Assembly: GCA_022843945.1 (NCBI GenBank)
Contig: JALHMR010000010.1
Coordinates: forward strand, 1-64,000
DNA: 64,000 bases
Origin: Rhodospirillaceae bacterium
GTDB taxonomy: Bacteria; Pseudomonadota; Alphaproteobacteria; CACIAM-22H2
Reading direction: 5' to 3'
Of this stretch, positions 4,440 to 61,323 are shown one piece after another. Position numbers and translations under genes: made by a program. How positions within the stretch are numbered: the stretch's first letter is position 1; the number at the start of each line of letters is the position of its first letter. A model generated the notes under the pieces. It had not been told where the DNA came from. It was given only the letters and a program-made list of their open reading frames with translations, and made no database searches.

Positions 4440-4559
4440 CTAGCACAGGCGCTAGCCGGGCCTCCAAACCGGTTGTTTCAAGAAACATGCCGTTATGGGG
4501 CCCCGGCCACGTCCCGTGACTCTCGACAGGGTAAGGGCGGCCGGGCCAAGCTGCGAAGA

Positions 4560-47613: not shown

Positions 47614-48528
47614 ATGTTAATGAGGGGCGGCGGAACAGTTGCGTGGGGCAGCGTGGCGCAGGCTGCGGACAAGAATGACAGGGCGAGCGAGAATGGCCGC
47701 GTCTGTCTTGTTTGCGGCGGCGGGATGCAACCGGATCGCCGTCCCGGCCTGATCCGCTGCCGCGAATGCGGATTTGTCACGGCGGACGTTGCAATCGATG
47801 AAGCGGGCCTGCGGGCGCTCTACGGCCGGCACTATTTCAATGGCGGAGAGTACGCCGACTACGCCGCTGACCAGGACGCCTTGCGGCGAAATTTCAGCCG
47901 GCGGATCGCAACCCTGCTGCGCCATGTAAGCAACCCCGGCGCCCGGTCACTGTTCGAAATCGGATCGGCCTACGGCTTCTTTCTCGACGAGGCAAAGCCT
48001 CGGTTTGCCACCGTCAGTGGCATCGATGTCGCCGAAGACGCGGCGCGCGCGGCTCAGGCACGGGGACTTTCCGTGCAGGCCGGCGATTTCCTGACGACGG
48101 ATACCGGCCGGCACGACGTCTACTGCCTATGGGATACGATCGAGCATCTGCAGCATCCCGATCGGGTGATTGCCAAGATTGCGCGCGAAATTCGCGCAGG
48201 TGGCATCATCGCGATCACCACGGGCGATATCGATAGCCTCAATGCCCGCTTGCGGGGCCGCCGGTGGCGACTCATACATCCGCCCACGCATCTGCACTAT
48301 TTTTCGGGGGAGACGCTGGCGGCTTTGCTCGCGCGGCACGGCTTCAGGACCGTCGAGCGGGAATACGTGGGAAGCACACGCAGCCTTCGGGCGATCGCGC
48401 ATGGCTTGCTGGCGCTGGGTGGGCGCAGTGACGCGGTGTATCGGAGCATCGAACCGCTTATCCCGCCGCGATGGGAGGTTACCCTCAATCTGTTCGATAT
48501 CATGCATGTCATCGCGAGGAAGATGTGA
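47614..48528 (+). CDS. Class I methyltransferase with N-terminal zinc-ribbon-like region
   Basis: A 304-residue protein. CLVCGGGMQPDRRPGLIRCRECGF supplies four cysteines of a zinc ribbon. LFEIGSAYGFFLDEAKPRF is motif I, and YCLWDTIEHLQHPDRVIAKIAREI motif IV. HPPTHLHYFSGETLAALLARHGF is common to methyltransferases in polysaccharide loci. The N-terminal 30 residues vary, and a later start is possible. It is translationally coupled to the membrane protein through GTGA. Confidence 0.8.
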   Translation: MLMRGGGTVAWGSVAQAADKNDRASENGRVCLVCGGGMQPDRRPGLIRCRECGFVTADVAIDEAGLRALYGRHYFNGGEYADYAADQDALRRNFSRRIATLLRHVSNPGARSLFEIGSAYGFFLDEAKPRFATVSGIDVAEDAARAAQARGLSVQAGDFLTTDTGRHDVYCLWDTIEHLQHPDRVIAKIAREIRAGGIIAITTGDIDSLNARLRGRRWRLIHPPTHLHYFSGETLAALLARHGFRTVEREYVGSTRSLRAIAHGLLALGGRSDAVYRSIEPLIPPRWEVTLNLFDIMHVIARKM

Positions 48529-49772
48529 GCAGCGCTGCCTCCCCCCGGCGCGATGATTACCTGTCCCCCGGCTCCCTGGTCGTGGTGGCGCTGTTCTCTT
48601 CCCTTGCCCTGATATTCATTCTTCTCAAATCGCTGACCCTCTCGTTATTGAGCACGGAGCCGGCTTTTGCGCCGTTCGCGCATTGGCATCAGACCTGTGC
48701 CGGCGAGTTGCGCCCCTGCCTGCGCGCGACCGGCGCCATCGTCGGGCTGGGTTTCGAGTACGTTTTTCGCGGTCTGGCGGAGCTGATGTTCTGGGAGCTC
48801 GCGCGGTCTCCGCTGCCGGCCGAGACGCCGTGGCCATTGCCTCCCGCCGAGGATCTGGTCCTGCGCCATGTCGTGCCGCTCGCGGCTTACATCGCCTATT
48901 GTTTCACATGCCTGCTGCCGATCCTTCTGGCGGCCTTTTGCTGGTATCGCGAGACGTCAACGCGGCTGATATTTGTCGTTGTCGTCTTTGGTGCTCTTTT
49001 TGGCTGGCATCCGGTTGTTGTCACGATCTTCTTCGATGCCATGTCGCTGATCGCGGATTGGCCGCGGTCCTACTATTTGTTCTGGCCGAATCTGGCGCCC
49101 TACGATTTCGCCGCGCTCGCGGTCGTCATGATCTCGTTGCTCTATGCCGGCTCCCGGCGCCCCAAGATCTGGTGGGAAATGGCGGCGCTTGCGGCGGCCG
49201 CCCAGCTGACCATCGAGTATCTCGGGCTGGTTTTCGGCCTGGCGCTCGCGGCCGCCGCGCTCGTCGAGCCCGCGGCGTCACGCGCCGCGGCCTGGCGTGT
49301 CGCACTGATGCGCCTGGGCATCGTCGGCGCGGCGTCGATAGTGGCTGCCGTAGGATCGGGCCTGGCCTTTTCCCTGTTCGGTCATGTCAGCGCCTTCAGC
49401 GGCGCGTCGGACGCATCCTCGGCCATGTTGACTCGCTGGCTGCCCACCAACCTGTCGATTTGGAAGGTGGTCGTTGCCAACGTCGTGACCCTCGGGGCTC
49501 TGGCGCTGGCGGGCGGTGCGCTGATGGGCTGTTTTGCCGGCTGGCGGGAGCGCGGGGCGGCAGCCGCGCTGAACGGCCGGATCGCGGCGGCCGCGGTTGG
49601 GATCGTGGCCGCCTTTCTGGCCGTGCTTCTCGGCGGCATGGTAGTTCTCGCCTATCCTGCTGAAATGTCTAGGCAATTCATGCCTTTCGCACTGGCTATG
49701 GTGGTCCTGGGGGCTAAGGGGCTGGAAGTCGCATGCGCCTCGACGCCAGCCCCAATACCGTCTTCACATTAA
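48525..49772 (+). CDS. Polytopic membrane protein of unknown function
   Basis: A 415-residue protein starting at GTG in a GTGA overlap. About nine or ten hydrophobic helices are present. A loop after helix 1 contains APFAHWHQTCAGELRPCLRATG with two cysteines, and a second loop holds SLIADWPRSYYLFWPNLAPYDF. I do not recognise a family. Coupling to a methyltransferase and position before the regulators suggest a transport, polymerase or glycosyltransferase role, but nothing decisive is visible. Confidence 0.6.
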   Translation: MSSAASPRRDDYLSPGSLVVVALFSSLALIFILLKSLTLSLLSTEPAFAPFAHWHQTCAGELRPCLRATGAIVGLGFEYVFRGLAELMFWELARSPLPAETPWPLPPAEDLVLRHVVPLAAYIAYCFTCLLPILLAAFCWYRETSTRLIFVVVVFGALFGWHPVVVTIFFDAMSLIADWPRSYYLFWPNLAPYDFAALAVVMISLLYAGSRRPKIWWEMAALAAAAQLTIEYLGLVFGLALAAAALVEPAASRAAAWRVALMRLGIVGAASIVAAVGSGLAFSLFGHVSAFSGASDASSAMLTRWLPTNLSIWKVVVANVVTLGALALAGGALMGCFAGWRERGAAAALNGRIAAAAVGIVAAFLAVLLGGMVVLAYPAEMSRQFMPFALAMVVLGAKGLEVACASTPAPIPSSH

Positions 49773-49802
49773 CCCCTAATCCGCTGATTTATCGGAATTT
49801 CC

Positions 49803-49865
49803 TTGACGTTCATTCTACGAACAGGTAGCTGTTCAGTAGTTGAACTACCCGTTTCGGGAACGGGT
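49803..49865 (+). promoter_or_regulatory. Promoter-operator region of the long sugar operon, with two inverted repeats
   Basis: TTGACG at 49803-49808 could be a -35, with a weak TAGCTG 17 bp later. The -10 lies within a strong dyad: CTAC-GAACAG-gtag-CTGTTC-a-GTAG (49815-49839). A second perfect dyad, ACCCGTT-tcggg-AACGGGT, occupies 49847-49865, just before the ribosome site AGGGG and the GTG start of the winged-helix gene. Binding of that regulator to its own promoter is inferred from position. Confidence 0.45.
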
Positions 49866-49881
49866 CGGGGTTAGGGGTCCG

Positions 49882-50532
49882 GTGTCTGATTCCACGTCGC
49901 AGCAGGCCAGAGGCGAAAGCGAGATCACGCTGGGGTTGCTGACGGCCGTCGATCGCGACCAGTCGGTCACGCAGCGTCGCCTGGCCTACGATCTCGGCAT
50001 CGCGCTGGGCCTCGCCAACGCCTATATCCGGCGCTGCGTCACCAAGGGCCTGATCAAGATCGCCCAAGCGCCGACCCACCGTTACGCCTACTACCTCACG
50101 CCCAAGGGCTTCGCGGAAAAGAGCCGCCTGACGGCCGAATTTCTGTCGCAATCGTTCAAGCTCATCCGCATGGCGCGCCAGCAGTATTCGGAGATCCTCG
50201 AGCGCTGCGTCGCGCAGGGCATCAAGCGCATCGCGATCTTCGGCGCCGCCGATCTGGCGGAAGTCGTTGTGCTTTGCGCGCGCGACTTCCAGATCACCGT
50301 CGTCGGCGCCGTCAGCAATGGCGCCGCCGTGGGCGATTTTGGCGTTCCCCTGGCCGGCAGCGTGGCCGAGCTCGCCGATTTCGACGTGATCATCGTTGCG
50401 GACCTGGCGGACCCGCAGAGGAGCTACGACCGTCTCGTCGAAGCCCTGGGACACGACAAGGTTCTGACCCCGGCGTTCCTCAACATTTCCAGGTCGGTGT
50501 CGCGCAGCAGCGACGAGGACGCCACGCCATGA
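49882..50532 (+). CDS. Winged-helix (MarR-type) transcriptional regulator of the polysaccharide operon
   Basis: A 216-residue protein. Residues 15-75 form a winged helix with the recognition helix in SVTQRRLAYDLGIALGLANAYIRRCVTKGLIK and wing APTHRYAYYLTPKGF, as in exopolysaccharide-associated MarR-like regulators. The C-terminal half IKRIAIFGAADLAEVVVLCARD looks like a small Rossmann-type fold, suggesting that it senses a nucleotide or metabolite. The GTG start has AGGGG 4 bases upstream. A TTG 14 codons earlier is open too. Its stop overlaps the antiterminator start by ATGA. Confidence 0.75.
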   Translation: MSDSTSQQARGESEITLGLLTAVDRDQSVTQRRLAYDLGIALGLANAYIRRCVTKGLIKIAQAPTHRYAYYLTPKGFAEKSRLTAEFLSQSFKLIRMARQQYSEILERCVAQGIKRIAIFGAADLAEVVVLCARDFQITVVGAVSNGAAVGDFGVPLAGSVAELADFDVIIVADLADPQRSYDRLVEALGHDKVLTPAFLNISRSVSRSSDEDATP

Positions 50533-51032
50533 AGCAATGGTTTGTGGTGCAGACCCATCCGAACGGCGAGATCAAGGCGGCGCTGAATCTGCGCCGCCAG
50601 AATTTCAGCATCTACCTGCCGCAGTATCTCAAGCTGCGCCGCCATGCTCGCCGGCGCGACTGGGTTCGCGCGCCTCTGTTCCCGCGTTATCTGTTCGTGT
50701 CGCTGGACCTCGGCGCTGATCGATGGTCCGCCGTCCGCTCCACCATGGGTGTCAGCCACCTCATCTGTAACGGCAACGATCCGGTTCCGGTGCCTGACGC
50801 GATCATCGGCGCCATCCGCGCCCGCGAGGATGCACAGGGAATCGTGAGTCTAAACCGGGTCGTCCCCCTGAGACGGGGCGAGTCGGTCAGGGTTCTCGCC
50901 GGCGCCTTTAGCGACCAGGTCGCGATCTTTGATTGCGAAACCGCCGCTGACCGCGTCAGGGTTCTGCTCAATCTCCTGGGCAGGATCGTCAGGATTGAAC
51001 TGCCACTCGACGCGGTCGGCGCCGCCGCCTGA
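50529..51032 (+). CDS. NusG/RfaH-like transcription antiterminator
   Basis: A 167-residue NusG paralog. The NGN domain is clear: MKQWFVVQTHPNGEIKAALNL, FSIYLPQYLKLRR and FPRYLFVSLDLGADRWSAVRSTMGV. The C-terminal KOW-like part has LRRGESVRVLAGAFSDQVAIF. RfaH/UpxY-type paralogs travel with RNA polymerase and keep long polysaccharide operons transcribed through pauses and terminators. It immediately precedes a ten-gene operon about 10 kb long. The ATG overlaps the regulator stop (ATGA), and a 109-bp gap separates it from the DegT gene. Confidence 0.87.
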   Translation: MKQWFVVQTHPNGEIKAALNLRRQNFSIYLPQYLKLRRHARRRDWVRAPLFPRYLFVSLDLGADRWSAVRSTMGVSHLICNGNDPVPVPDAIIGAIRAREDAQGIVSLNRVVPLRRGESVRVLAGAFSDQVAIFDCETAADRVRVLLNLLGRIVRIELPLDAVGAAA

Positions 51033-51141
51033 TCGTCGAAGGCAGAAGGCATGTGCGGTCTGGGGTGAGTCACCCGGACTGCGGTAGCGTGCCTATTTTC
51101 AGCTTCCGTTTCGGTCCACTCCAATCATCGGGTCCTGTCCC

Positions 51142-52284
51142 ATGACCATCCCGTTCGGCGCTCCGATCATCGAATCCGAAGAACGCCAAGCCGTTCTTAA
51201 CGTGCTGGCGGGCCCTATCCTGGTGCACGGTCCGCGTGCCACGCAGTTCGAGAACGATTTCGCCGCCTTTACCGGTGCTCCCTACGCGGTTTCGGTATCC
51301 AACTGCACGGCCGGCATGCATCTCGTTTACCTCGCCCTCGGTCTGGGGCCGGGCGATGAGGTCATCGTTCCCGCCCAGACCCACGTCGCCACGGCGCATG
51401 CCGTCGAAGCGGTCGGCGCCACGCCGGTCTTCGTCGATGCCGACGCCGAGACCGGCAATATCGATATCGAGGCCGTCGAGGCGGCAGTCACGCCACGGAC
51501 CAAGGCGATTGCCGTCGTGCACTTTCTCGGCATGCCGGTCGACATGGACCAGATCAACCGCATCGCGCGCGCCCGTAAGCTCTTTGTCGTCGAGGATGCG
51601 GCGCTCGCGGTCGGCACCCGCTATAACGGCACGCATGCCGGCTGCCTCGGTGACGTCGGCGTCTTCTCCTTTTACCCGGTCAAGCACATCACGACAGCAG
51701 AAGGCGGCATGGTCATCACCAAGCACGCCGACCTCGCGGCAAAAGTGCGCCTGAAGCGGGCCTTCGGTGTCGACCGGGCGCACGGCGAGCGCGATATTCC
51801 CGGCATGTATGACGTGGTCGATTTCGGCCTGAACTATCGCATGAGCGAGATTCACGCAGCCCTGGGGATCGAGCAGCTCAAGAAGGCTGAGGGCTTTGTG
51901 GCCAAGCGGCGCGCGAACTACAATGCCCTCTCCCGCGCCTTGGGCAATCACGAGCGTTTCAGCTTGCTGCGCTCGACCCACGGCGGCTTCGAGAGCAGCT
52001 ACTATTGCCTCTCGGTGGTGCTTGACGAGGCCGCGGCGGAAAAGCGCCCGGCCATCATGGCGGCGATGAAGGACCAGGGCGTGGGTACCAGCATCTACTA
52101 TCCCAAACCGGTGCCGCGCATGACGGTCTATCGTAACAAGTACGGCTACGAACCGGCGCGCTACACCAATGCGGCACGCATCAGCGATCGCTCGATCGCC
52201 CTGCCGGTCGGGCCTCACCTGGACGAGGCGGATATGCATGTCGTGGCGAAGGCCCTGACCCACGCAATCGAAAGAGTCGCATAA
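51142..52284 (+). CDS. DegT/DnrJ/EryC1 aminotransferase
   Basis: A 380-residue sugar aminotransferase. VSVSNCTAGMHLVYLALGLGPG, VPAQTHVATAHAVEAVGATP and VEDAALAVGTRYNG are family blocks. The PLP lysine is in FSFYPVKHITTAEGGMV. It aminates a keto-sugar nucleotide, probably at C4 as in PseC/LegC, though the position cannot be read off. It directly abuts the following epimerase gene (no gap) and starts the enzyme part of the operon. It is the third DegT enzyme in the window. Confidence 0.88.
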   Translation: MTIPFGAPIIESEERQAVLNVLAGPILVHGPRATQFENDFAAFTGAPYAVSVSNCTAGMHLVYLALGLGPGDEVIVPAQTHVATAHAVEAVGATPVFVDADAETGNIDIEAVEAAVTPRTKAIAVVHFLGMPVDMDQINRIARARKLFVVEDAALAVGTRYNGTHAGCLGDVGVFSFYPVKHITTAEGGMVITKHADLAAKVRLKRAFGVDRAHGERDIPGMYDVVDFGLNYRMSEIHAALGIEQLKKAEGFVAKRRANYNALSRALGNHERFSLLRSTHGGFESSYYCLSVVLDEAAAEKRPAIMAAMKDQGVGTSIYYPKPVPRMTVYRNKYGYEPARYTNAARISDRSIALPVGPHLDEADMHVVAKALTHAIERVA

Positions 52285-53328
52285 ATGACTGACTTTCCCA
52301 TTCGCGGCCGACGCATCGTCCTGACGGGCGGAGCTGGCTTCATCGGCCACAACCTGGCGCTCGAGCTGAAGCGGCGTGGCGGCGATGTCCACGTCGTGGA
52401 CAGTCTTCAGGTCAACAACCTGATCGCCATCACCCACAACAAGGACAACGTTCCGAACCGGGACCTTTACCTGACGCTGATCAACGAACGGCTCGAGCTT
52501 CTGCGTCAGGCGGGGATCCCGCTTCACGTGCAGGATGCGCGCGACTACGCGGTGATGAACGAGATCCTGGACGAGCTGCAGCCCCAAACGATCGTCCACC
52601 TCGCGGCCGTCGCCCACGCCACGCGGGCGAACAAGGACCCGCATACGACATTCGACCACAGCCTGAGAACTCTCGAAAATACCCTCGACTACGCGAAGAA
52701 CAAGGTCGAGCACGTCATCTTCCTGTCCTCCAGCATGGTTTACGGCAATTTCGATGGTGCCGCGGTTACCGAGGACACCGTCTGCAACCCGATCGGCATC
52801 TATGGCGCGTTGAAGTTTGCCGGCGAGAAGATGATGATCGCCTACAACCAGGTCTTCGGCCTGAACTACACCATCATCCGGCCGTCGGCGTTGTACGGCG
52901 AGCGGTGTGTCAGCCGCCGCGTCGGTCAGATGTTCATCGAGAATGCGATTCAAGGGCTCGATCTGACAGTGGTCGGCGACGGTTCGGACCGGCTGGATTT
53001 CACCTATATCGGGGACCTGGTGGATGGTCTCTGCCGCTGCATCGAAGACAAGCGCGCCCGTAACGAGGTCTTCAACATCACCTACGGCCAGGGCCGCTCG
53101 CTCGGTGAGATGGTTGAGATCGTCAAGCGCGAATTCCCCGGCGTGACGGTGCGATCCGCGCCGCGTGACAAGCTCATGCCCGAACGCGGCACGCTTTCAA
53201 ACCAGAAGGCCCGCGATCTGCTCGGGTATCAGTCCCAGTATCCGCTTGAGATCGGCCTCGTTCGTTACATCAAGTGGTACAAGGGGCTCTGGGAAAGTCG
53301 CGCCAAGACGGCCGCGCAGGCCGATTAG
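52285..53328 (+). CDS. NAD-dependent epimerase/dehydratase
   Basis: A 347-residue extended SDR. VLTGGAGFIGHNLALELKRRG binds NAD, VIFLSSSMVYGNF carries the serine, and IGIYGALKFAGEKMMI provides tyrosine and lysine (YxxxK). IRPSALYGERCVSRRVGQMF and RLDFTYIGDLVDG follow. It may be a dehydratase or epimerase that creates the keto-sugar for the DegT enzyme encoded just upstream. An internal stretch after the first beta strands (DSLQVNNLIAITHNKDNV) is not typical of PseB/LegB, so exact assignment is open. Confidence 0.85.
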   Translation: MTDFPIRGRRIVLTGGAGFIGHNLALELKRRGGDVHVVDSLQVNNLIAITHNKDNVPNRDLYLTLINERLELLRQAGIPLHVQDARDYAVMNEILDELQPQTIVHLAAVAHATRANKDPHTTFDHSLRTLENTLDYAKNKVEHVIFLSSSMVYGNFDGAAVTEDTVCNPIGIYGALKFAGEKMMIAYNQVFGLNYTIIRPSALYGERCVSRRVGQMFIENAIQGLDLTVVGDGSDRLDFTYIGDLVDGLCRCIEDKRARNEVFNITYGQGRSLGEMVEIVKREFPGVTVRSAPRDKLMPERGTLSNQKARDLLGYQSQYPLEIGLVRYIKWYKGLWESRAKTAAQAD

Positions 53329-53346: not shown

Positions 53347-54036
53347 ATGGGATTGCGGCCATCGCCTTGGTTGAGCCGGGTTCTTGGCAGGCCGGCGCAC
53401 AGCGTCGATGAGTCGCCTTTTGCCGATACGCGGCTGCCGGCGGCTCCCGCCTTCATCGATGCCAAGGTCGACGTCGAGCGGGCAGACCGTGTCGCCGAAC
53501 TTACCGCAGCAGGCTTTCGGCTCGTTACGGTGAACGTTCAATTGAAGCGCCCATCCGGGTATCCATCATCCTTGCCGACCGGGATCGCTGTTCGGCCGGC
53601 TCGCGATGGCGACCGCGATGCCGTATCGGATATCGCCGGCCGCGCGTTTACTCTCGATCGATTCCATGTCGACCCGATGATCGATCGGCCGATCGCTGAC
53701 CGAATCAAGGCGGAATGGGCTGCCAACTTTTTCATCGGGGAGCGCGGTGATGTCATGGCGGTATCGGAAATCGACGGCCGTATCGCGGGCTTCAATCTGC
53801 TGTTCCGGCGCGAGCGCACGCTGATCATCGATCTCATCGCCGTGGCGCCGGAGCTGCAGCGGCGCGGGGTCGCCGGCGCGATGATCGACTATGCCGCGGC
53901 ACAATGGGGCGATGAACGGGAAATGGTCGTGGGCACCCAGCTGACAAACCAGGCCAGCCTTGCGCTGTATCAGCGCGTCGGCTTCCGGCTGGAATCGGCC
54001 GCCTATGTCCTTCACCACCACGGGACCGCCGCGTAG
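53347..54036 (+). CDS. GNAT N-acetyltransferase (sugar amine acetylation)
   Basis: A 229-residue protein. The GNAT fold begins near residue 80 (IAVRPARDGDRDAVSDIAGRAF). LIIDLIAVAPELQRRGVAGAMIDYA is motif A for acetyl-CoA, and NQASLALYQRVGFRLESAAYVLHHH motif B. The layout is like WecD/PseH-type enzymes, which acetylate 4-amino-hexose nucleotides. In this operon it would acylate the amine introduced by the DegT enzyme. The N-terminal 75 residues are an extra region of unknown use. It ends at the base before the next start codon. Confidence 0.8.
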   Translation: MGLRPSPWLSRVLGRPAHSVDESPFADTRLPAAPAFIDAKVDVERADRVAELTAAGFRLVTVNVQLKRPSGYPSSLPTGIAVRPARDGDRDAVSDIAGRAFTLDRFHVDPMIDRPIADRIKAEWAANFFIGERGDVMAVSEIDGRIAGFNLLFRRERTLIIDLIAVAPELQRRGVAGAMIDYAAAQWGDEREMVVGTQLTNQASLALYQRVGFRLESAAYVLHHHGTAA

Positions 54037-55869
54037 ATGTGCGGGATAGCGGGCTTCTTCGGCTTCGCTGACGGCATTGCCGGACGCATTCCGGCAACAC
54101 AGGGATCCATGCGCCGTCGTGGCCCCGATGCGCAGGGCGCGTCCAGTCATCGCAGCCAATCCGGCCGCGAGGCGATCTTGGTCCAGACCCGTCTCAAGAT
54201 CATCGATCTTTCGGATCGCGCCGATCAGCCGTTCCGCTACAAGGCGAAGCACCTCGTCTTCAACGGCGAGATCTACAACTATCTCGAGCTTCGTCAGCAG
54301 CTGGAGAAGCGCGGGCATCGTTTTGTTACCCAGTCGGATACGGAAGTCCTCATCCATCATCTCGACGAGTTCGGTGCTGCCGGTATCGCCGATCTCGAGG
54401 GCATGTGGGCATTCGCTCTCTATGACGAGGCGGATAGCAGCCTGACACTTTGCCGCGACCGCTTCGGCGAGAAGCCGCTCTATCTGCTGCAGGACGGAGC
54501 GGGAATTTATTTCGCCTCCGAGGTCAAAGCGCTGATGATGCTCGCCGGGCGCAAGCTGGCCATCAATTACGACCAGCTCTCCCGTTTTATCGTCAACGGC
54601 TACAAAGCGCTTAACAAGCAGCTCCATCATCAGTTCTTCATCGGCCTCGAAGTGCTGCCGCCGGCCTGCGTGCGGCGCATCGACCGCGACGGGCTCAGCC
54701 ACCAGTGGCGCTACTGGAACCCCTGCCTGCAGCAGGAGCAGGGTATGGACTTCGGGGAGGCGGTGGCGGGGACAAAGGCCCGGCTGATTCGCTCGCTCGA
54801 GATACGACTACGCGCCGATGTTCCGCTGGCCTTCATGCTGTCGGGTGGGGTCGACTCGAATAGCCTGATCGGCATCGCCAAGCGTCTCTTCGGCTACGAC
54901 GTCCACGGCTTCACGGTTATCGCCGACGACGAGCGCTACGGCGAAGCGGACGTCGTCCGGCAATCAGTCCAGGCCTTGGGCATCCGTCACACCGAGATTC
55001 CGGCCGATAGATCCGATTTCATCGCCAAGCTGCGGACCCTCGTCAACTATCATGATGCTCCCGTCGCCACCACGGTCGACTTCGCCATCTGGCAGCTGAT
55101 CGAGAAGGTGGCGGCCCACGGCTACAGGATCGTGATTTCCGGCAACGGCGCCGACGAGCTTTTCTCGGGTTACTACGATCACCACCTGCTCTATCTCGCC
55201 GCCGTCCATCAGGATCCGAACCTGTACGGCCACAGCTTGCGCCAGTGGAACGACAAGGTGCGGCCACACGTCCGCAATCCGTACCTGACCGAGCCGGAAC
55301 GCTTCGTGCGGACCCCGGCGGAACGCCGTCATATCTACCTGGGTAGCGAAGAGTTCGGGCGGCTCTTTCATGCCCCGTGGGCGGAGCCTTTCTGGGAGGC
55401 TGCCTATACCCCCGACCTCATGCGCAACCGCATGGCCAACGAAATCTTCCATGAGAGCGTGCCTGTGGTGCTGCACGAGGACGACCTCAATGCGATGTAT
55501 CACTCGGTGGAGAACCGCTCGCCGTTTCTGGATCGCGATCTCTTCGAGTTCGCCAACTCCGTGCCAACCCGGCATCTCGTGCGTGACGGTGCCGCTAAGG
55601 CCGTCCTGCGGGAGGCGGTGCGCGGTATCGCGCCCGATCACATCGTCGACCAGGTGCGTAAGGTCGGGTTCAATGTGCCGACCGAGGAGTACGTGGATCT
55701 TTCGTCGCCGGAGAATGTCGACTTCCTGACCGGCGACAGCCCGATCTTCGACTATGTCGACCGCGAGCGCATACGGGACCTGGTCGCATCAAATACCAGC
55801 ACCAATAGCCGGAGCAAGGCGCTGTTCAATTTCATCAGCTCCAAGGTCTTCGTAGAAGAGTTTTCATGA
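54037..55869 (+). CDS. Asparagine synthetase family amidotransferase 2
   Basis: A 610-residue protein of the AsnB family. C2 in MCGIAGFFGF is the glutaminase nucleophile, TRLKIIDLSDRADQPF and VFNGEIYNYLELR line the glutamine pocket, and FMLSGGVDSNSLIGIAKRLFG is the ATP-binding PP-loop. An unusual insertion is KALMMLAGRKLAINYDQL and a C-terminal tail that ends FISSKVFVEEFS. It differs from the paralog at 37841 across much of its length, so these are not recent duplicates. It probably amidates a sugar carboxyl. The stop overlaps an ATG (ATGA) that leads to a 23-codon frame. Confidence 0.88.
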   Translation: MCGIAGFFGFADGIAGRIPATQGSMRRRGPDAQGASSHRSQSGREAILVQTRLKIIDLSDRADQPFRYKAKHLVFNGEIYNYLELRQQLEKRGHRFVTQSDTEVLIHHLDEFGAAGIADLEGMWAFALYDEADSSLTLCRDRFGEKPLYLLQDGAGIYFASEVKALMMLAGRKLAINYDQLSRFIVNGYKALNKQLHHQFFIGLEVLPPACVRRIDRDGLSHQWRYWNPCLQQEQGMDFGEAVAGTKARLIRSLEIRLRADVPLAFMLSGGVDSNSLIGIAKRLFGYDVHGFTVIADDERYGEADVVRQSVQALGIRHTEIPADRSDFIAKLRTLVNYHDAPVATTVDFAIWQLIEKVAAHGYRIVISGNGADELFSGYYDHHLLYLAAVHQDPNLYGHSLRQWNDKVRPHVRNPYLTEPERFVRTPAERRHIYLGSEEFGRLFHAPWAEPFWEAAYTPDLMRNRMANEIFHESVPVVLHEDDLNAMYHSVENRSPFLDRDLFEFANSVPTRHLVRDGAAKAVLREAVRGIAPDHIVDQVRKVGFNVPTEEYVDLSSPENVDFLTGDSPIFDYVDRERIRDLVASNTSTNSRSKALFNFISSKVFVEEFS

Positions 55870-55902: not shown

Positions 55903-56583
55903 TTGTTAGCAATCATTCAGGCTCGCTGTACCTCTAGCCGCCTTCCGGGAAAGGTGCTCCGGGAAATCAATGGGCAACCGCTCCTGGACTACCTGCTACA
56001 GCGCCTGGAGCGCTGTCGCCAGCTGGACGGCATCATATTGGCGACGTCGGTTGAGCCCAGTGACGATGCTCTTGAAGCGTATGCCGCGCGCCGGCGGGTT
56101 GGGTGCATCCGCGGGCCCCTTGACGATGTTGCGGCACGGTTCCGGCTGGTCCTGCAGGCCACGGGCGCATCGGCCTTCGCCCGGGTCAGCGGCGACAGCC
56201 CGCTGCTCGACCCTGCCTTGATCGACCGGGCGGTTTCTTTGTTCGATGACGGCGACTGGCACCTCGTCACCAATGTTCAGACGCGCACCTTTCCCAAGGG
56301 ACAATCGGTCGAGATCCTGGATGCGGCGACCTTTGCGGAAGTCAGCGAGAGCTACACCACCGCGCCGGACCGTGAGCATGTCACGCCGTTTTATTACGCC
56401 AACGCCGAACGCTTCCGCATTCGCAATTTCGAGAGCGATCGGGAGCTGGGCGAGATGAGAATGGTGATCGATACCCAAGCCGATCTCGACAGTTTCCAGG
56501 CCATCGTGAAGCACATGGACCGTCCTCACTGGGAGTACGGGGTCGATGATCTCGTGCCTCTTTACGAGGCCCTGGCGCCGTGA
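55903..56583 (+). CDS. Cytidylyltransferase family protein (SpsF/NeuA-like)
   Basis: A 226-residue protein. LAIIQARCTSSRLPGKVLREINGQPLLDYLL is the CTP-binding signature, and FARVSGDSPLLDPALI the catalytic aspartate region. VIDTQADLDSF closes the fold. The family activates acylneuraminates or related sugars as CMP-derivatives, and with NeuB downstream the CMP-nonulosonate role is the simplest. The start used is a TTG with AAGG 9 bases upstream. The ATG in the ATGA overlap with the previous gene is one base out of frame with this gene. Confidence 0.8.
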   Translation: MLAIIQARCTSSRLPGKVLREINGQPLLDYLLQRLERCRQLDGIILATSVEPSDDALEAYAARRRVGCIRGPLDDVAARFRLVLQATGASAFARVSGDSPLLDPALIDRAVSLFDDGDWHLVTNVQTRTFPKGQSVEILDAATFAEVSESYTTAPDREHVTPFYYANAERFRIRNFESDRELGEMRMVIDTQADLDSFQAIVKHMDRPHWEYGVDDLVPLYEALAP

Positions 56584-57590
56584 CGAGTCGGTCCTACCGG
56601 GCAGCGGTGATCGGTCTTGGTGTCGGCGAGCGGCATATTTTCGGCTACGAGCTGCATCCGCAATGCCGTGTGGAGGTCCTGTGCGATATCGATGCCGCCA
56701 AGCTCGCCGAGGTGGCTGCGCGCCATCCTGGCCGTCGCCTGACGCGCGAGCCCGCCGAAGTCCTGGATGATCCGAGCATCGACATCGTGTCAATCGCCTC
56801 CTACGACAACGTTCATTTCGAGCAGATCATGCGCGCGCTGGACCACGGCAAGCACGTCTTCGTCGAAAAGCCGTTGTGTCTGACCGAGGCGGAGCTTGCC
56901 GGGATCCGTGGCGCCCTCGCAGCCCGTCCGGCCCTTCAGCTCTCCTCCAACTTGATCCTGCGCCGCGCGCCGCGCTTCAAATCGCTGCACGAGCAGATTC
57001 GCGCCGGTGACCTCGGCCGGCTGTATTACGTCGAAGGTGACTACAACTACGGCCGCTTCCACAAGCTCACGAGCGGCTGGCGGGGCGAACTGCCTTTTTA
57101 TTCGGTCGTGCACGGCGGCGCGATTCACATGATTGACCTGCTGATGTGGCTTGCCGGTGAACGCCCCACCGAGGTCTTTGCCTATGGTGGGCGCGGTGCA
57201 CCCGAAGGTTCGACGTTCAAATTCAACGATACCGTCGCCGCTGTTCTCAAATTCCCGAGCGGAATGCTGGGCAGGATCACCGCGAATTTTCCCTGCAAGA
57301 TGCCGCATCATCACGCCCTTACCGTCCATGGAACCAAGGCCTCCTTCGTGCACAACAGCCTGGGCGCGCGATTTTTTACGTCGACGGATCCCGAAATTGC
57401 CCCGTCGGTCGTGACCACGGCGTATCCCGGGGCGCAGAAGGGCGACATGCTTCCCGCGTTTGTCGATGCCGTGATCAACGGCGGAGAGCCGGAAGTCACC
57501 GCTGACGAGGTCATGGCCGGCATGCAGGTCTCTCTCGCCATCGAGCGCGCCGCGACGCAAGGCGTGCCGGTGCCCGTCGTTTACAACTGA
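56580..57590 (+). CDS. Gfo/Idh/MocA family oxidoreductase
   Basis: A 336-residue protein. AAVIGLGVGERHIFGYELH binds NAD(P), IDIVSIASYDNVHFEQI follows and GKHVFVEKPLCLTEAEL contains the EKP signature. The C-terminal alpha/beta domain includes FYSVVHGGAIHMIDLLMWL. These enzymes oxidise or reduce C3 of nucleotide sugars (WbpB/WlbA-like) or other sugar alcohols. The GTG start lies in a GTGA overlap with the cytidylyltransferase gene. Twenty bases separate it from NeuB. Confidence 0.85.
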   Translation: MTSRSYRAAVIGLGVGERHIFGYELHPQCRVEVLCDIDAAKLAEVAARHPGRRLTREPAEVLDDPSIDIVSIASYDNVHFEQIMRALDHGKHVFVEKPLCLTEAELAGIRGALAARPALQLSSNLILRRAPRFKSLHEQIRAGDLGRLYYVEGDYNYGRFHKLTSGWRGELPFYSVVHGGAIHMIDLLMWLAGERPTEVFAYGGRGAPEGSTFKFNDTVAAVLKFPSGMLGRITANFPCKMPHHHALTVHGTKASFVHNSLGARFFTSTDPEIAPSVVTTAYPGAQKGDMLPAFVDAVINGGEPEVTADEVMAGMQVSLAIERAATQGVPVPVVYN

Positions 57591-57610: not shown

Positions 57611-58621
57611 ATGAAAATCGGACCTCTCGATACCGACCGTGAGGTCGTGGTCGTTGCGGAGATCGGCAACAATCACGAAGGAAGCGTGGCGCTGGCCGAA
57701 GAGATGATCGGGCGCGCCGCCGAGGCTGGCGCCCATGCCGTCAAGCTGCAGACTTTCGTCCCCGAATTATTCACCACGCCGCGTGAGGCGCAACGCTTTG
57801 CCCGCCTAACCAAGTTTCGGCTGCCTCCGGAAGCCTGGCCGAAACTGGCCAAGCTGGCGGAGAGCCTGGGGATCGTGTTCTTCTCGACGCCCTTGGATCT
57901 GGAAAGCGTGAAGCTGCTAAACCCGCTGGTTCCGGTGTTCAAGATCGCTTCCAGCGACAACACTTTCACCCCGCTCCTCGAGGCCGTCGCAGCGCTGGCC
58001 AAGCCGATCATCCTGTCGACCGGCCTGGCGACTATCGGCGAATTGCAGCGCGCCAAAGCGGCCATCGATGCGGTATGGCAGGCGCGGGGCGTGTCGCCCG
58101 GCTTGCTCTGCCTTCATTGTGTCTGCAGCTATCCCGTGCCCGCGGAGCAGGCGAACCTGGCGGCGATACCGACGTTGGCGGCGGGCCTGGGCGTACCGGT
58201 CGGCTACTCGGATCACACGCTCGGTATCGAGGCCGCGGTGCTCTCCGTCGGCCTCGGCGCCAGGCTGGTCGAAAAGCACTTTACGCTGGATAAGAATTTC
58301 TCGGACTTCCGCGACCATCAGCTTTCAGCGGATCCCGCGGAGTTCAAGGAACTCGTCCGTCGTGTCAAGGAAGCCGCGCTCTTGATGGGGGACGGGCGCA
58401 AGGTCCTCCAGCCCTGCGAAGAGGCGATGGTCCCTCTGGTACGCCGCTCCGCGGCGGCGTCCGGCGCCCTGGCCAAAGGCTCGGTCCTGACCAAATCGGA
58501 CCTCATCTGGATCAGGCCGGGCGACGGGTTCTCTGTTGAGGACGAGCGCCAATTGCTTGGCAGGCACCTGACGGTGGATTTGGCCCGTGGAGACATCATC
58601 CGTCGCGAGCATCTGGAGTAG
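57611..58621 (+). CDS. N-acetylneuraminate synthase family (NeuB/PseI/LegI)
   Basis: A 336-residue NeuB-family protein. VVVVAEIGNNHEGSVALAEEMI and AVKLQTFVPE form the PEP-condensing barrel start. STGLATIGELQRA and VGYSDHTLGIEAAV line the active site. HFTLDKNFSDFRDHQLSADP is typical of PseI/LegI/NeuB. A SAF/antifreeze-like domain ends the protein (PLVRRSAAASGALAKGSV to ARGDIIRREHLE). It condenses phosphoenolpyruvate with a 6-carbon amino sugar to make a nine-carbon acid. Whether the product is legionaminic, pseudaminic or another acid is unknown. Confidence 0.92.
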   Translation: MKIGPLDTDREVVVVAEIGNNHEGSVALAEEMIGRAAEAGAHAVKLQTFVPELFTTPREAQRFARLTKFRLPPEAWPKLAKLAESLGIVFFSTPLDLESVKLLNPLVPVFKIASSDNTFTPLLEAVAALAKPIILSTGLATIGELQRAKAAIDAVWQARGVSPGLLCLHCVCSYPVPAEQANLAAIPTLAAGLGVPVGYSDHTLGIEAAVLSVGLGARLVEKHFTLDKNFSDFRDHQLSADPAEFKELVRRVKEAALLMGDGRKVLQPCEEAMVPLVRRSAAASGALAKGSVLTKSDLIWIRPGDGFSVEDERQLLGRHLTVDLARGDIIRREHLE

Positions 58622-59257
58622 ATGATGGCGTCGTCGCCGCCGCGAGTCGCGCTCATCGAATACGGTGTCGGCAATCTCGGCTCGGTGCTCAATGCCTGCC
58701 GGCGGTGTGGCGTGGAGCCGGTCATCGCGCGCACGGCGGCCGAACTCGACAGCGCCAGCCCGACCCATATCCTGTTGCCTGGTGTCGGTGCGGTGGGGGA
58801 GGTTCTGGCCAACCTTCGCGCCCAGGACCTCGAACCTGCTCTGCGCCGGCATGTTCTTGATCAGAAAACACCGCTATTGGGGATATGCGTCGGCATGCAG
58901 ATGCTGGCCGATAGCTGCGAGGAGCATGGCGAACATGCGGGGCTCGGCTTTATCCCGGGCCGGGTCAAGCATCTCGGCCCGCTCGTCGGCGATCGGCCGT
59001 TGCCGCATATCGGATGGAACACCATAAGGCCGGCGGCCGCGGAGGACCCGCTGTGGCGGTCCGTAACTGACGAGCATTTCTATTTTCTTCACAGCTACGC
59101 TTTCGTATGCGAGCCGCCGTTCGCGGCATGCCAGACGGAGTACGGCGGCGAGTTCGTCAGTGGCGTGAAGCGCGGCAATGTCTACGGGGTCCAGTTTCAT
59201 CCCGAGAAAAGCTCGGCAGCCGGGATGAGGCTGCTCGATAACTTCTTCCATATCTGA
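58622..59257 (+). CDS. HisH-like glutaminase subunit of a sugar amidotransferase
   Basis: A 211-residue class I glutamine amidotransferase. Catalytic residues are C89 in GICVGMQML, H193 and E195 in GVQFHPEKSS. YGVGNLGSVLNACRRCG is the HisH-type start. It hydrolyses glutamine and passes ammonia to a synthase partner. The next two genes encode the HisF-like partner and WbpG, so it belongs to surface-sugar amidination, as hisH2 in Pseudomonas, and not to histidine synthesis. It begins at the base after the NeuB stop. Confidence 0.85.
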   Translation: MMASSPPRVALIEYGVGNLGSVLNACRRCGVEPVIARTAAELDSASPTHILLPGVGAVGEVLANLRAQDLEPALRRHVLDQKTPLLGICVGMQMLADSCEEHGEHAGLGFIPGRVKHLGPLVGDRPLPHIGWNTIRPAAAEDPLWRSVTDEHFYFLHSYAFVCEPPFAACQTEYGGEFVSGVKRGNVYGVQFHPEKSSAAGMRLLDNFFHI

Positions 59258-59259
59258 CC

Positions 59260-60048
59260 TTGCTGAAGCGCCGGCTGATTCCGGTCCTGTTCCTCAAGGA
59301 CGGGCTCATGGTCCGCAGCCAGGGCTTCGATACGCACCAGGTGATCGGTCATCCGCTGACCCATGTGACGCGCATGACGCAATGGGACGTCGACGAGCTG
59401 ATCGTGATCGATATCAGCGAGAATGCGAATTCGTACGAGATCTTCCGCGATGATCAGAAATTCAAGGGAGCGGGAGACCTGCTTCAGTTCATTGCCAGCG
59501 TGGCCGAGACCTGCGCCATGCCCTTGGCCTTCGGGGGCAACATCCGGAGCGTCGAGGACGTGCACGCGCGCATCTTGAACGGCGCCGACAAGGTTACCGT
59601 GAACTCGATGCTGGTGGATGCGCCAGCAGCGGTCACCGAAGCCTCCAGAAAATTCGGCGCCCAGGCGATCGTCGCCAGCATCGATTACCGCATGGTGGAG
59701 GGCCAGGCGCGCACGTTCACCCATCTGGCGCGGCGCGACCAGAAGGTCGACCCTGCGGCTTGGGCGCGCCGCGCTGAAGACCTGGGAGTGGGCGAGATCC
59801 TGTTGAACGCGGTCGACCGCGATGGAACAGGGCGCGGCTATGATATCGAGACGATTGCCCGGGTCGCCGAGGCGGTTCGCGTCCCCGTCGTGGCGTGCGG
59901 TGGGGCGGGGCATCAGCGCCACTTCAAGAGCTGCTTCGATGAGACAAAGGCGAGCGGCGTTGCCGCCGGCAATATCTTCCATTTCACTGAAAACGCGTAT
60001 CCCAATATCAAGCGCTACCTTCGATCGACACGCACGGATATCCGCTGA
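59260..60048 (+). CDS. HisF-like synthase subunit, sugar amidotransferase type
   Basis: A 262-residue TIM barrel that matches HisF along its length (LAFGGNIRSVEDVHARILNGADKVTVNS, IVASIDYRMVEG, LLNAVDRDGTGRGYD, VVACGGAG). The start RRLIPVLFLKDGL places F11 where catalytic Asp11 of HisF is conserved (IPCLD). The second catalytic acid is present (SIDYR). Loss of the first aspartate means it should not make imidazole glycerol phosphate. Ammonia tunnelling from HisH to WbpG is the likely remaining role. The start codon is TTG, 2 bases after the HisH stop. Confidence 0.85.
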   Translation: MLKRRLIPVLFLKDGLMVRSQGFDTHQVIGHPLTHVTRMTQWDVDELIVIDISENANSYEIFRDDQKFKGAGDLLQFIASVAETCAMPLAFGGNIRSVEDVHARILNGADKVTVNSMLVDAPAAVTEASRKFGAQAIVASIDYRMVEGQARTFTHLARRDQKVDPAAWARRAEDLGVGEILLNAVDRDGTGRGYDIETIARVAEAVRVPVVACGGAGHQRHFKSCFDETKASGVAAGNIFHFTENAYPNIKRYLRSTRTDIR

Positions 60049-60051
60049 CCC

Positions 60052-61188
60052 ATGACTGTTGAAATCCCTCCGGTCCACTACTGCGCGCGCTGTGTTTACC
60101 CCTCGAGCTCGGCGGTTTCGCTCGTGTTCGACAAGAACGGCGTGTGCAGCGGCTGTCGCGTCCATGATCAGCGCAATGAGATCGATTGGGAAGAGCGGCT
60201 CGAGATGTTGCTCGAGCTGGTCGAGCCTTACCGCAAGCCCACCGGCTACGAATGCGTGATCGGCGTTTCCGGTGGAAAGGACAGTTATTTCCAGACCCAC
60301 TTCGTCACCGAGAAGCTTGGCTTGAAGCCGCTGCTGGTGACCTATGACGGCAACAACTTCCTCGATGTCGGCTGGCGCAATCTGCTGCGCATGAAGGAGC
60401 TGTTCAACACCGACCACCTCATCCTGCGGCCCTCGGTGGACCTTCTCGTCCGGCTGAATCGCCTGGCGTTCCGCAAGATGGGTGATATGAACTGGCATGC
60501 CCATGCCGGTATCGGCTCCACGGTCATGATGACCGCGGTGCGTTACAACATCCCACTCGTCTTCTGGGGCGAGCATGGATACACCGATCTGGGCGGCATG
60601 TACTCGATGTACGATCTGGTGGAATACACCGCGCGCTATCGTCGCGACCATCAGATGCGCGGTTACGACTGGCACGACATGCTCGGCGATTCAGAAGACC
60701 CGATCGCGGAGCATGAGATGCAATGGTGCATCTATCCCAGCGATGAGGACATCAACCGGGTCGGTCTGCGCGGCGTCTATATCGGCAACTACGACCGCTG
60801 GGACGCCAATGCGCACTCGCAGCTGGTCGTCGACAAGTACGGCTGGGAGCCGTCGCCCGTTCCCTTCGATCGCACCTACCGGCGGTTTTCGAACCTTGAC
60901 GATCGCTATGAGAACGGGGCGCACGACTATCTGAAGTTCATCAAGTTCGGCTATGGGCGGGCGACCGACCATTCCTGCAAGGACATTCGCCGCGGGCATA
61001 TGACCCGCGAACAGGGCATCGAAATGGTGCGTCGCTACGATCATGTCCGGCCGTCGGATCTCGATTTCTGGCTCAACTACGTTGAGCGCAACGAGGAATG
61101 GTTCTGGGGAATAGCGGATACGTTCCGTTCGCCCAAGGTTTGGACGAAGGACAATGGCCGGTGGCTGAAGCGGAACATTTGGGACTAA
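60052..61188 (+). CDS. N-acetyl sugar amidotransferase (WbpG/PseA family)
   Basis: A 378-residue ATP-pyrophosphatase. Four cysteines (C11, C14, C32, C35) form an N-terminal zinc site, CARC and CSGC. GVSGGKDSYFQTHFV is the PP-loop (SGGKDS at residues 73-78). VFWGEHGYTDLGG follows. WbpG/PseA enzymes with HisH2/HisF2 convert an acetamido group to an acetamidino group, in O-antigen mannuronates and in pseudaminic acid. The three adjacent genes form that set here. It starts 3 bases after the HisF-like gene. Confidence 0.9.
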   Translation: MTVEIPPVHYCARCVYPSSSAVSLVFDKNGVCSGCRVHDQRNEIDWEERLEMLLELVEPYRKPTGYECVIGVSGGKDSYFQTHFVTEKLGLKPLLVTYDGNNFLDVGWRNLLRMKELFNTDHLILRPSVDLLVRLNRLAFRKMGDMNWHAHAGIGSTVMMTAVRYNIPLVFWGEHGYTDLGGMYSMYDLVEYTARYRRDHQMRGYDWHDMLGDSEDPIAEHEMQWCIYPSDEDINRVGLRGVYIGNYDRWDANAHSQLVVDKYGWEPSPVPFDRTYRRFSNLDDRYENGAHDYLKFIKFGYGRATDHSCKDIRRGHMTREQGIEMVRRYDHVRPSDLDFWLNYVERNEEWFWGIADTFRSPKVWTKDNGRWLKRNIWD

Positions 61189-61256: not shown

Positions 61257-61323
61257 GGCGCCCGGCGTGCGGCATTTTGCTATGGCCCGAAAAAGCGGCG
61301 GCCAGTGGAAGGGTAGTTGGGCA

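Follow-up and report, generated by a model that had tools for sequence, protein, structure and literature searches.

A putative control cassette of a winged-helix regulator, an RfaH-like NusG paralog and a hairpin-ops element ahead of a glycan gene cluster in a Rhodospirillaceae bacterium

A winged-helix regulator and an RfaH-like NusG paralog are encoded by overlapping genes ahead of a glycan gene cluster in contig JALHMR010000010.1 of a Rhodospirillaceae bacterium (assembly GCA_022843945.1). Positions 1-64,000 of the forward strand were analysed and are called the window here; the region of interest is 49803-51091. From sequence comparison, we consider it likely that the pair is a self-contained control cassette, in which the winged-helix protein would control initiation and the RfaH-type paralog would then load at a hairpin-ops pause. 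The initial annotation had proposed a two-stage switch of this kind. Comparison supports its outline, through operators over the promoter, a hairpin-ops element that tracks the paralog and distant operons bearing both operator and element; the details of its dyads, the place of ops and the operon length had to be revised. The cassette has the following features, all on the forward strand.

49803-49808: -35-like hexamer TTGACG, sharing its last base with the start of operator 1
49808-49822: operator 1, GTTCATTCTACGAAC, one mismatch to GTTCA-N5-TGAAC
49831-49845: operator 2, GTTCAGTAGTTGAAC, exact, 23 bp from operator 1 and over the likely -10/+1 region
49847-49865: second dyad, ACCCGTT-N5-AACGGGT, of doubtful role
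49882-50532: winged-helix regulator with a C-terminal Rossmann-like domain, 216 amino acids, GTG start at 49882, TGA stop at 50530-50532
50529-51032: RfaH-like NusG paralog, 167 amino acids, ATG at 50529 in an ATGA overlap with the regulator
51055-51082: RNA hairpin GCGGUCUGGG-GUGAGUCA-CCCGGACUGC, adjoining the ops core
51080-51091: ops core TGCGGTAGCGTG, located past the NusG-like gene and ahead of the first enzyme gene

Operators at the promoter of the pair

A scan of 385 alphaproteobacterial genomes detected the NusG paralog in 89 of them (E-value of 1e-15 or below). A first batch comprised 48 alphaproteobacterial paralog loci, three near-duplicates included, and seven loci from Thermodesulfobacteriota/Deltaproteobacteria. 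Comparison of the DNA upstream of the relatives' regulator genes revealed GTTCA-N5-TGAAC fused to TTGACGTT, the latter present in 33 of 44 upstream regions. Allowing one mismatch within 200 nucleotides (nt), the operator was found in all 43 upstream regions of this discovery set, our own included, and at least twice in 35 of them; L007, L027, L053, L058 and L067, cut or near-duplicate, had been excluded. The 85 sites in total compare with a mean of 0.15 in dinucleotide shuffles, and the commonest distances between operators are 23, 24 and 22 bp. Because the motif had been discovered in first-batch sequences, loci were fetched afterwards, as a test, for the 62 NusG-paralog places of the scan not covered before. 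In this later batch the operator was present at 34 of the 39 loci with a same-strand regulator, either up to 250 nt upstream of the regulator match or inside its first 60 nt; one of these loci, L181, repeats a first-batch genome. Three further genomes from a search of the phylum each contain two exact operators together with a NusG paralog and a hairpin-ops element.

The two operators are the sole GTTCA-N5-YGAAC matches in the 64 kb of the window, where 0.15 would be expected. Across the 5.4 Mb of the whole genome there are 60 sites with up to one mismatch (50 of them listed), compared with 18 for a reversed control, and the two exact operators elsewhere (C27 and C52) have no second copy and no TTGAC within ~60 nt. 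The two dyads that the initial annotation placed in the leader both exist as inverted repeats. The first (49815-49839), with its repeat GAACAG/CTGTTC at 49819-49834, is a by-product of the right half of operator 1 and the left half of operator 2. The role proposed for the second, ACCCGTT/AACGGGT, gained no support, as this dyad was not among the commonest words common to the upstream regions, a comparison that included no test aimed at it. The leader RNA folds more stably than shuffles (z -3.2). A strict sigma-70 scan of the leader returned no passing site; comparison with the relatives supports the predicted -35 and weakly supports the predicted -10.

The hairpin-ops element and its association with the paralog

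The search for an ops-like element in the leader, which had been suggested together with the switch, found none in the leader of the regulator and one behind the NusG-like gene. Its core, TGCGGTAGCGTG, differs by one base from the enterobacterial ops, GGCGGTAGCGTG. The single GGTAGCGTG copy in the window is weakly informative alone, being present in 22 of 100 shuffles. Among the relatives, GCGG[T/C]AGC lies within 130 nt past the paralog stop in 27 of the 48 first-batch alphaproteobacterial loci (L027 with a variant minus one G) and behind none of the seven Thermodesulfobacteriota/Deltaproteobacteria paralogs. In the later batch, the element is within 200 nt behind 20 of the 62 paralogs. We also sought the core behind the hairpin arm (TCACC or GCACC within 180 nt past the NusG-like gene), an anchor that does not select by the core. 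The arm was present in 32 of 46 first-batch loci and was followed by GCGGTAGC in 22, by GCGGCAGC in two and by a core with two to five mismatches in eight, while 14 loci had no anchor. The core is therefore either retained or the element is absent.

A set of 49 distinct elements was selected by GCGG[T/C]AGC, so that the constancy of those letters is uninformative; outside the selection, T11 is T in 43 elements and position 1 is T in 42. Position 6 is T in 44 and C in five; L046, L047, L108, L135 and L136 have C there, a change at the very base that E. coli RfaH flips out. The parts of PMC5995543 consulted report for E. coli that ops bases 3-8 matter for RfaH recruitment and T11 and G12 for the pause, and that T6 is flipped into a pocket formed by H20, R23, Q24 and R73.

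The hairpin of the window has ten pairs, 51055-51064 with 51073-51082 (-22.4 kcal/mol, z -2.9), and in relatives its letters have changed with the folding kept (mean z -2.0 over 27). As MAFFT alignment failed on the variable 5' arms, covariation was assessed over the 49 elements by permutation. Permuting the 3' arm never matched the real pairing energy (0 of 1000, z -7.3), with an energy sum of -471 for the real pairs and -376 +- 13 for the permuted ones. A control with shuffled upstream halves gave z -1.2 +- 1.3 over 20 sets and -4.4 in the worst, and part of the covariation signal may therefore be composition or kinship. Among 32 elements whose arm differs from the commonest, their own paired better than the commonest one in 18 and equally well in five. 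Pair counts from our alignment A4, in which the 5' ends were chosen by eye, are biased toward structure. The Rfam covariance model of JUMPstart RNA, RF01707, had no match in 49500-51500 at E up to 10, and a search of 20 relatives at E up to 1 was equally empty; its five matches in our own genome are all under the cut-off and none is at the hairpin-ops site. The best of these (G000:C8:76865-76891; L017, L138), at 22 bits, is another GCGGTAGCGTG without the TCACCC arm and was taken as chance.

A covariance model built from ten elements, R2, was run over the 385 genomes with stricter filters. At E up to 1e-4 it matched in 30 genomes, all of them within the 89 that bear a paralog, and in none of the 296 without one. 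Omitting the seven training genomes leaves 23 versus 0 (Fisher p 3.5e-17, a value that overstates the independence of sequences related to one another). At E up to 0.01 the matches extend to 43 genomes with a paralog and 10 without. A pattern search with TCACCCGGACTGCGGTAGC at three mismatches proved too loose, matching 161 of the 385 genomes, and was rejected.

Some elements are remote, that is, not directly behind a NusG-like gene. We considered 18, comprising all nine such R2 matches at E up to 1e-4 and nine others: six up to 1e-3 (L131, L135, L136, L227, L228 and L230), L128 from the pattern search, and the weaker L045 and L231, which are the only remote R2 matches above 1e-3 included. The R2 matches L134, L229 and L232, which lack either the core or the TCAC arm, were dropped before the count. 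Allowing one mismatch and 400 nt of upstream distance, an operator precedes 11 of the 18 (L041, L042, L045, L112, L128, L130, L132, L133, L136, L228 and L231), where the 60 sites in our own genome lead one to expect ~0.005 per 400 nt. Scripts found no operator in L229 and L232, and with the three dropped loci the count is 11 of 21. The 11 of 18 thus point to one regulon that carries both marks. In L041, L042 and L045 the pair and the ops-bearing operon are divergent and their common region holds three or four operators, which are for this reason not independent of the pair. The longest open reading frame (ORF) that starts no more than 400 nt behind each remote element was compared with Pfam, as follows.

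L112, L128, L131: DegT aminotransferases
L130, L133, L135, L231: Polysacc_synt_2 dehydratases
L132: cytidylyltransferase
L136: NeuB
L109, L129: ABC transporters
L230: short-chain dehydrogenase
L041, L042: methyltransferases, cut or weak
L113, L227, L228: no Pfam match
L045: no ORF of 100 amino acids in the stretch covered

Nine of the 18 remote elements precede plain sugar-synthesis genes and two precede exporters. Remote operons with the same operator and element suggest that the cassette also acts in trans in several relatives. The genome of L135 (G225) has its hairpin-ops before the dehydratase and no paralog at E 1e-15; the paralog may be diverged or missing, or the element a relic. In our own genome, GCGGTAGCGTG occurs four times, compared with six for a reversed control pattern; the other three sites have no TCACCC arm right 5' of the core, and R2 finds one site at E 0.05. 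The cassette therefore probably has one target here.

The two proteins and the downstream genes

The ATGA overlap of a regulator gene with an RfaH/UpxY-like gene, described in the initial annotation, corresponds to ORFs 49882-50532 and 50529-51032. The winged helix was recognized by PF13412 (HTH_24; E 2.8e-6, 27.2 bits, curated cut-off 21.9) and also matches the MarR_EPS model TIGR04176, at E 9e-16 and, with 57.8 bits, under the curated cut-off of 88. The Rossmann-like C-terminal half noticed earlier is reproduced by AlphaFold2, run with 44 sequences as input, with a mean predicted local distance difference test score (pLDDT) above 90 in most 10-residue blocks and of 85.6 for the whole model. 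In VIA-align comparisons of this half, periplasmic binding proteins lead with Z 10.0 to 9.8; the matches also include the Rex repressor 3wg9 (Z 9.7, root-mean-square deviation 2.9, 95 aligned), WbaP 8t53 (Z 8.1, 2.7, 86 aligned) and 3nkl, a domain of a UDP-quinovosamine dehydrogenase (Z 8.8, 2.9, 93 aligned). Foldseek returned zero matches for this half at E 0.001 or better. The likenesses of the predicted structure are those of a common fold and nothing further. No ligand could be named from them, with periplasmic binding proteins, Rex and dehydrogenases all tied, nor from the weak E-values of PglD_N, NeuD and CoA_binding_3, which appeared for just one to three of 44 alignment members. We infer control by a ligand through the Rossmann half, as the initial annotation did.

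Short-form regulators of ~120 amino acids, which have no Rossmann half, adjoin the NusG paralog in L210 and L218, and the same operator is found there. This suggests that the winged helix probably sets the DNA specificity; the Rossmann half may have been added later, or lost. A regulator copy in L066, where no NusG-like match was found in the locus, has an in-frame TGA and is possibly decayed. In our own genome, a search for paralogous regulators gave weak P0001 matches (E >= 0.009), among which L002 and L004 are in or opposite ORFs that by eye look unrelated. In the phylum search, six of 398 genomes had the regulator at E 1e-20, one of the six lying outside the class. L225, from outside the class, is a full-length regulator with one exact and one near operator and no NusG paralog in the locus.

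The NusG paralog belongs to the family by PF02357 (E 5.9e-22). The RfaH model TIGR01955 fits it best (E 5.8e-37) and scores 127.1 bits with a curated cut-off of 144.5, and the protein is therefore called RfaH-like and not assigned as RfaH. The RfaH side of the earlier designation RfaH/UpxY-like thus stood better than the UpxY side, as the UpxY model NF033644 (E 8.1e-19) reaches 68.2 bits, under its cut-off of 100. The LoaP model NF033641 gives 36.1 bits (cut-off 125). In the pocket region, the paralog aligns with E. coli RfaH without a net numbering shift. Across 28 rows, a chosen part of 53 sequences, Q24 and T72 are present in all 28 and R23 in 26. The regulator lies directly 5' of the paralog on the same strand in all 29 of the best-scoring class loci, L020-L048 (among which L027 ends at a contig end), and a same-strand regulator accompanies 39 of the 62 later, lower-scoring paralogs, in L160 from the downstream side. 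In the seven Thermodesulfobacteriota/Deltaproteobacteria loci (L009-L015) the paralog has no winged-helix gene, and the DNA that follows, just after position 4500, looks conserved.

The genes behind the ops core, again on the forward strand, are these.

51142-52284: DegT/DnrJ/EryC1 aminotransferase, the first gene after ops
52285-53328: sugar epimerase/dehydratase dependent on nicotinamide adenine dinucleotide (NAD)
53347-54036: GNAT acetyltransferase
54037-55869: asparagine synthase-like amidotransferase
55903-56583: cytidylyltransferase
56580-57590: GFO/IDH/MocA oxidoreductase
57611-58621: NeuB-family synthase
58622-59257: HisH-type glutaminase subunit
59260-60048: HisF/WbuZ-type subunit
60052-61188: WbuX N-acetyl sugar amidotransferase
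61267-63204: B12-binding radical SAM protein

The cluster reads as nonulosonate-type sugar synthesis with amidation. In place of the 10-kb operon proposed earlier, forward-strand ORFs with small gaps run on for ~30 kb, to ~79.8 kb of the contig (at ORF level only beyond 64 kb); that they form a single operon is putative. The upstream neighbour of the cassette, 48471-49772, encodes a 433-amino-acid membrane-like protein for which Pfam gave no match (E up to 1).

Proposed mechanism, alternatives and meaning

We infer binding, pausing, loading and the direction of control from the arrangement of these parts. In the proposed mechanism, the winged-helix protein would bind GTTCA-N5-TGAAC twice over the promoter, from -35 to about +1, and govern initiation, most likely as an autorepressor. 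A nucleotide, a sugar nucleotide or NAD(H) might, as a guess, act through the Rossmann-like half to relieve or tighten this control. Having transcribed the pair, polymerase would pause at the hairpin-ops, 51055-51091, with the ops bases exposed on the non-template strand. The element and the protein family suggest that the NusG paralog would load there in the fashion of RfaH, displace NusG and carry polymerase through the downstream glycan genes. The pause end, transferred from E. coli, is expected at 51090; if the stem ended at 51079, 11 nt would remain. A spacing of ~11 nt from stem to pause resembles that of hairpin-stabilised pauses. By this analogy, a hairpin that adjoins ops at such a spacing probably strengthens the pause.

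Several findings weigh against this reading. Kinship among the genomes is uncorrected, and besides the selected letters discussed above, ops position 10 is free and position 12 is divided between G (32 elements) and T (16). Seven of the 27 hairpins have z > -1, two of them positive, and nine of the 32 elements whose arm differs from the commonest would be better paired by that commonest arm. In the pocket, R23 and Q24 are kept in the window paralog, with H20 changed to N and R73 to M; across the 28 rows H20 is retained in 16 and R73 in three. AlphaFold2 folds the KOW domain of the paralog as a beta barrel and not as the autoinhibited helical form, which may merely reflect the method. The association is incomplete as well. 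No element was found in 59 of the 89 paralog-bearing genomes at E up to 1e-4, nor within 200 nt behind 42 of the 62 later paralogs, some of them at contig ends; 23 of these 62, again some at contig ends, have no same-strand regulator beside them, and seven of the 18 remote elements (L109, L113, L129, L131, L135, L227 and L230) have no operator. At E up to 0.05 R2 matches 52 genomes with a paralog and 31 without, as chance matches enter.

Different readings of the same parts can be weighed on this evidence. The paralog could act in cis like UpxY, on its own leader or by binding polymerase during its synthesis, leaving the ops-like element a relic or a simple pause. The genes do lie at the head of their target cluster, as portions of PMC7593976 describe for UpxY and TaA, and the UpxY model matches at E 8.1e-19, but its 68.2 bits are under the cut-off and the RfaH model scores far higher. 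The element, moreover, follows the paralog gene, retains its core at loci with the arm and also precedes remote sugar-metabolism genes, so that we regard purely cis action as quite improbable. Somewhat better placed, and still unlikely, is recruitment by the RNA hairpin instead of, or besides, the non-template DNA, in the manner of LoaP. A covarying RNA hairpin adjoins ops, and PMC12691694, in the parts consulted, reports a leader RNA hairpin that LoaP needs and binds. On the other side, the letters of the hairpin change with pairing kept while the ops core is kept as sequence, which fits reading of DNA, and the LoaP model is far below its cut-off (36.1 against 125).

At the operators, the winged-helix protein might be an activator and not a repressor, as in the remote operon L130 an operator lies just 5' of a TTGACG hexamer. 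At the promoter of the pair and in L112, L128 and L133, however, the operators are inside or downstream of the -35 region, the usual place of a repressor, and activation seems unlikely to us on that account. The two genes could also be an ordinary co-directional pair without mutual function, with another factor at the operators and an element unrelated to the paralog. We give this very little weight, since 34 of 39 later loci have operators with the regulator gene, which holds for the short forms L210 and L218 too, and the element tracks the paralog, in 30 genomes versus 0. We therefore retain as likely the cassette in which initiation by the winged helix is followed by loading of the paralog at hairpin-ops. 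A bolder form of it is tentative and, in our judgement, rather doubtful: the cassette may double-tag glycan operons, the winged-helix/Rossmann protein reading an operator at initiation and the paralog reading the non-template DNA, perhaps the RNA too, of an ops fused to an RNA hairpin that stabilises the pause.

The closest known system is RfaH with ops-JUMPstart of Enterobacteriaceae, which shares a NusG paralog, a near-identical ops core, an element before polysaccharide genes and the likely service of remote operons, together with the R23, Q24 and T72 of the ops pocket. In contrast to RfaH, the paralog here is encoded next to a winged-helix regulator where its target cluster begins, and has H20 and R73 changed. 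Rfam lists its JUMPstart family, which gave no match at this site, for Gammaproteobacteria, and PMC2864571 reports that JUMPstart elements share a conserved stem-loop; a stem beside ops is therefore not new in itself. The pair may belong to RfaH cluster CL4, which Wang et al. 2020 (PMC7593976) associate, in the portions consulted, with a helix-turn-helix transcriptional regulator; the main text portions covered describe no operator or ops for CL4. UpxY and LoaP are likewise NusG paralogs serving biosynthetic clusters, and LoaP uses an RNA hairpin, but here both models score under their cut-offs and an ops core is present. For the regulator, all 44 alignment members match the winged-helix model MarR_EPS, the name of which implies exopolysaccharide loci; with 105 positions, the model is too short to include the Rossmann half. 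Rex redox repressors share the order of a winged helix and then a Rossmann domain, and Rex chains such as 3wg9 rank high among the structures that resemble the C-terminal half; dehydrogenases and periplasmic binding proteins rank level with them (Z 8-10), and no sequence match to Rex was found.

In the open-access literature, supplements lying outside this scope, no report of the operator or the element in Alphaproteobacteria was found. The cassette would thus recast RfaH-type control, known from enterobacteria, with new parts: a partner operator and an ops fused to a hairpin. Parts of a review (PMC7819879) ask how specialised NusG proteins encoded within their target operons find them, and a cis-binding ancestor was proposed for them, together with a late origin of the residues that read DNA; as of 2020, E. 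coli RfaH was described as the sole representative with a recruitment mode known in detail (PMC7593976, in part). The cassette offers a cis-encoded paralog with a near-perfect ops, a covarying hairpin, a partner operator and predictions at the level of single bases in many genera of another class, and these predictions make the recruitment question directly testable. It also provides two motifs for listing glycan regulons from sequence. If double tagging were true, the recruitment modes of RfaH and LoaP would be joined in one element, and the sensing of a glycan metabolite would be coupled to both checkpoints.

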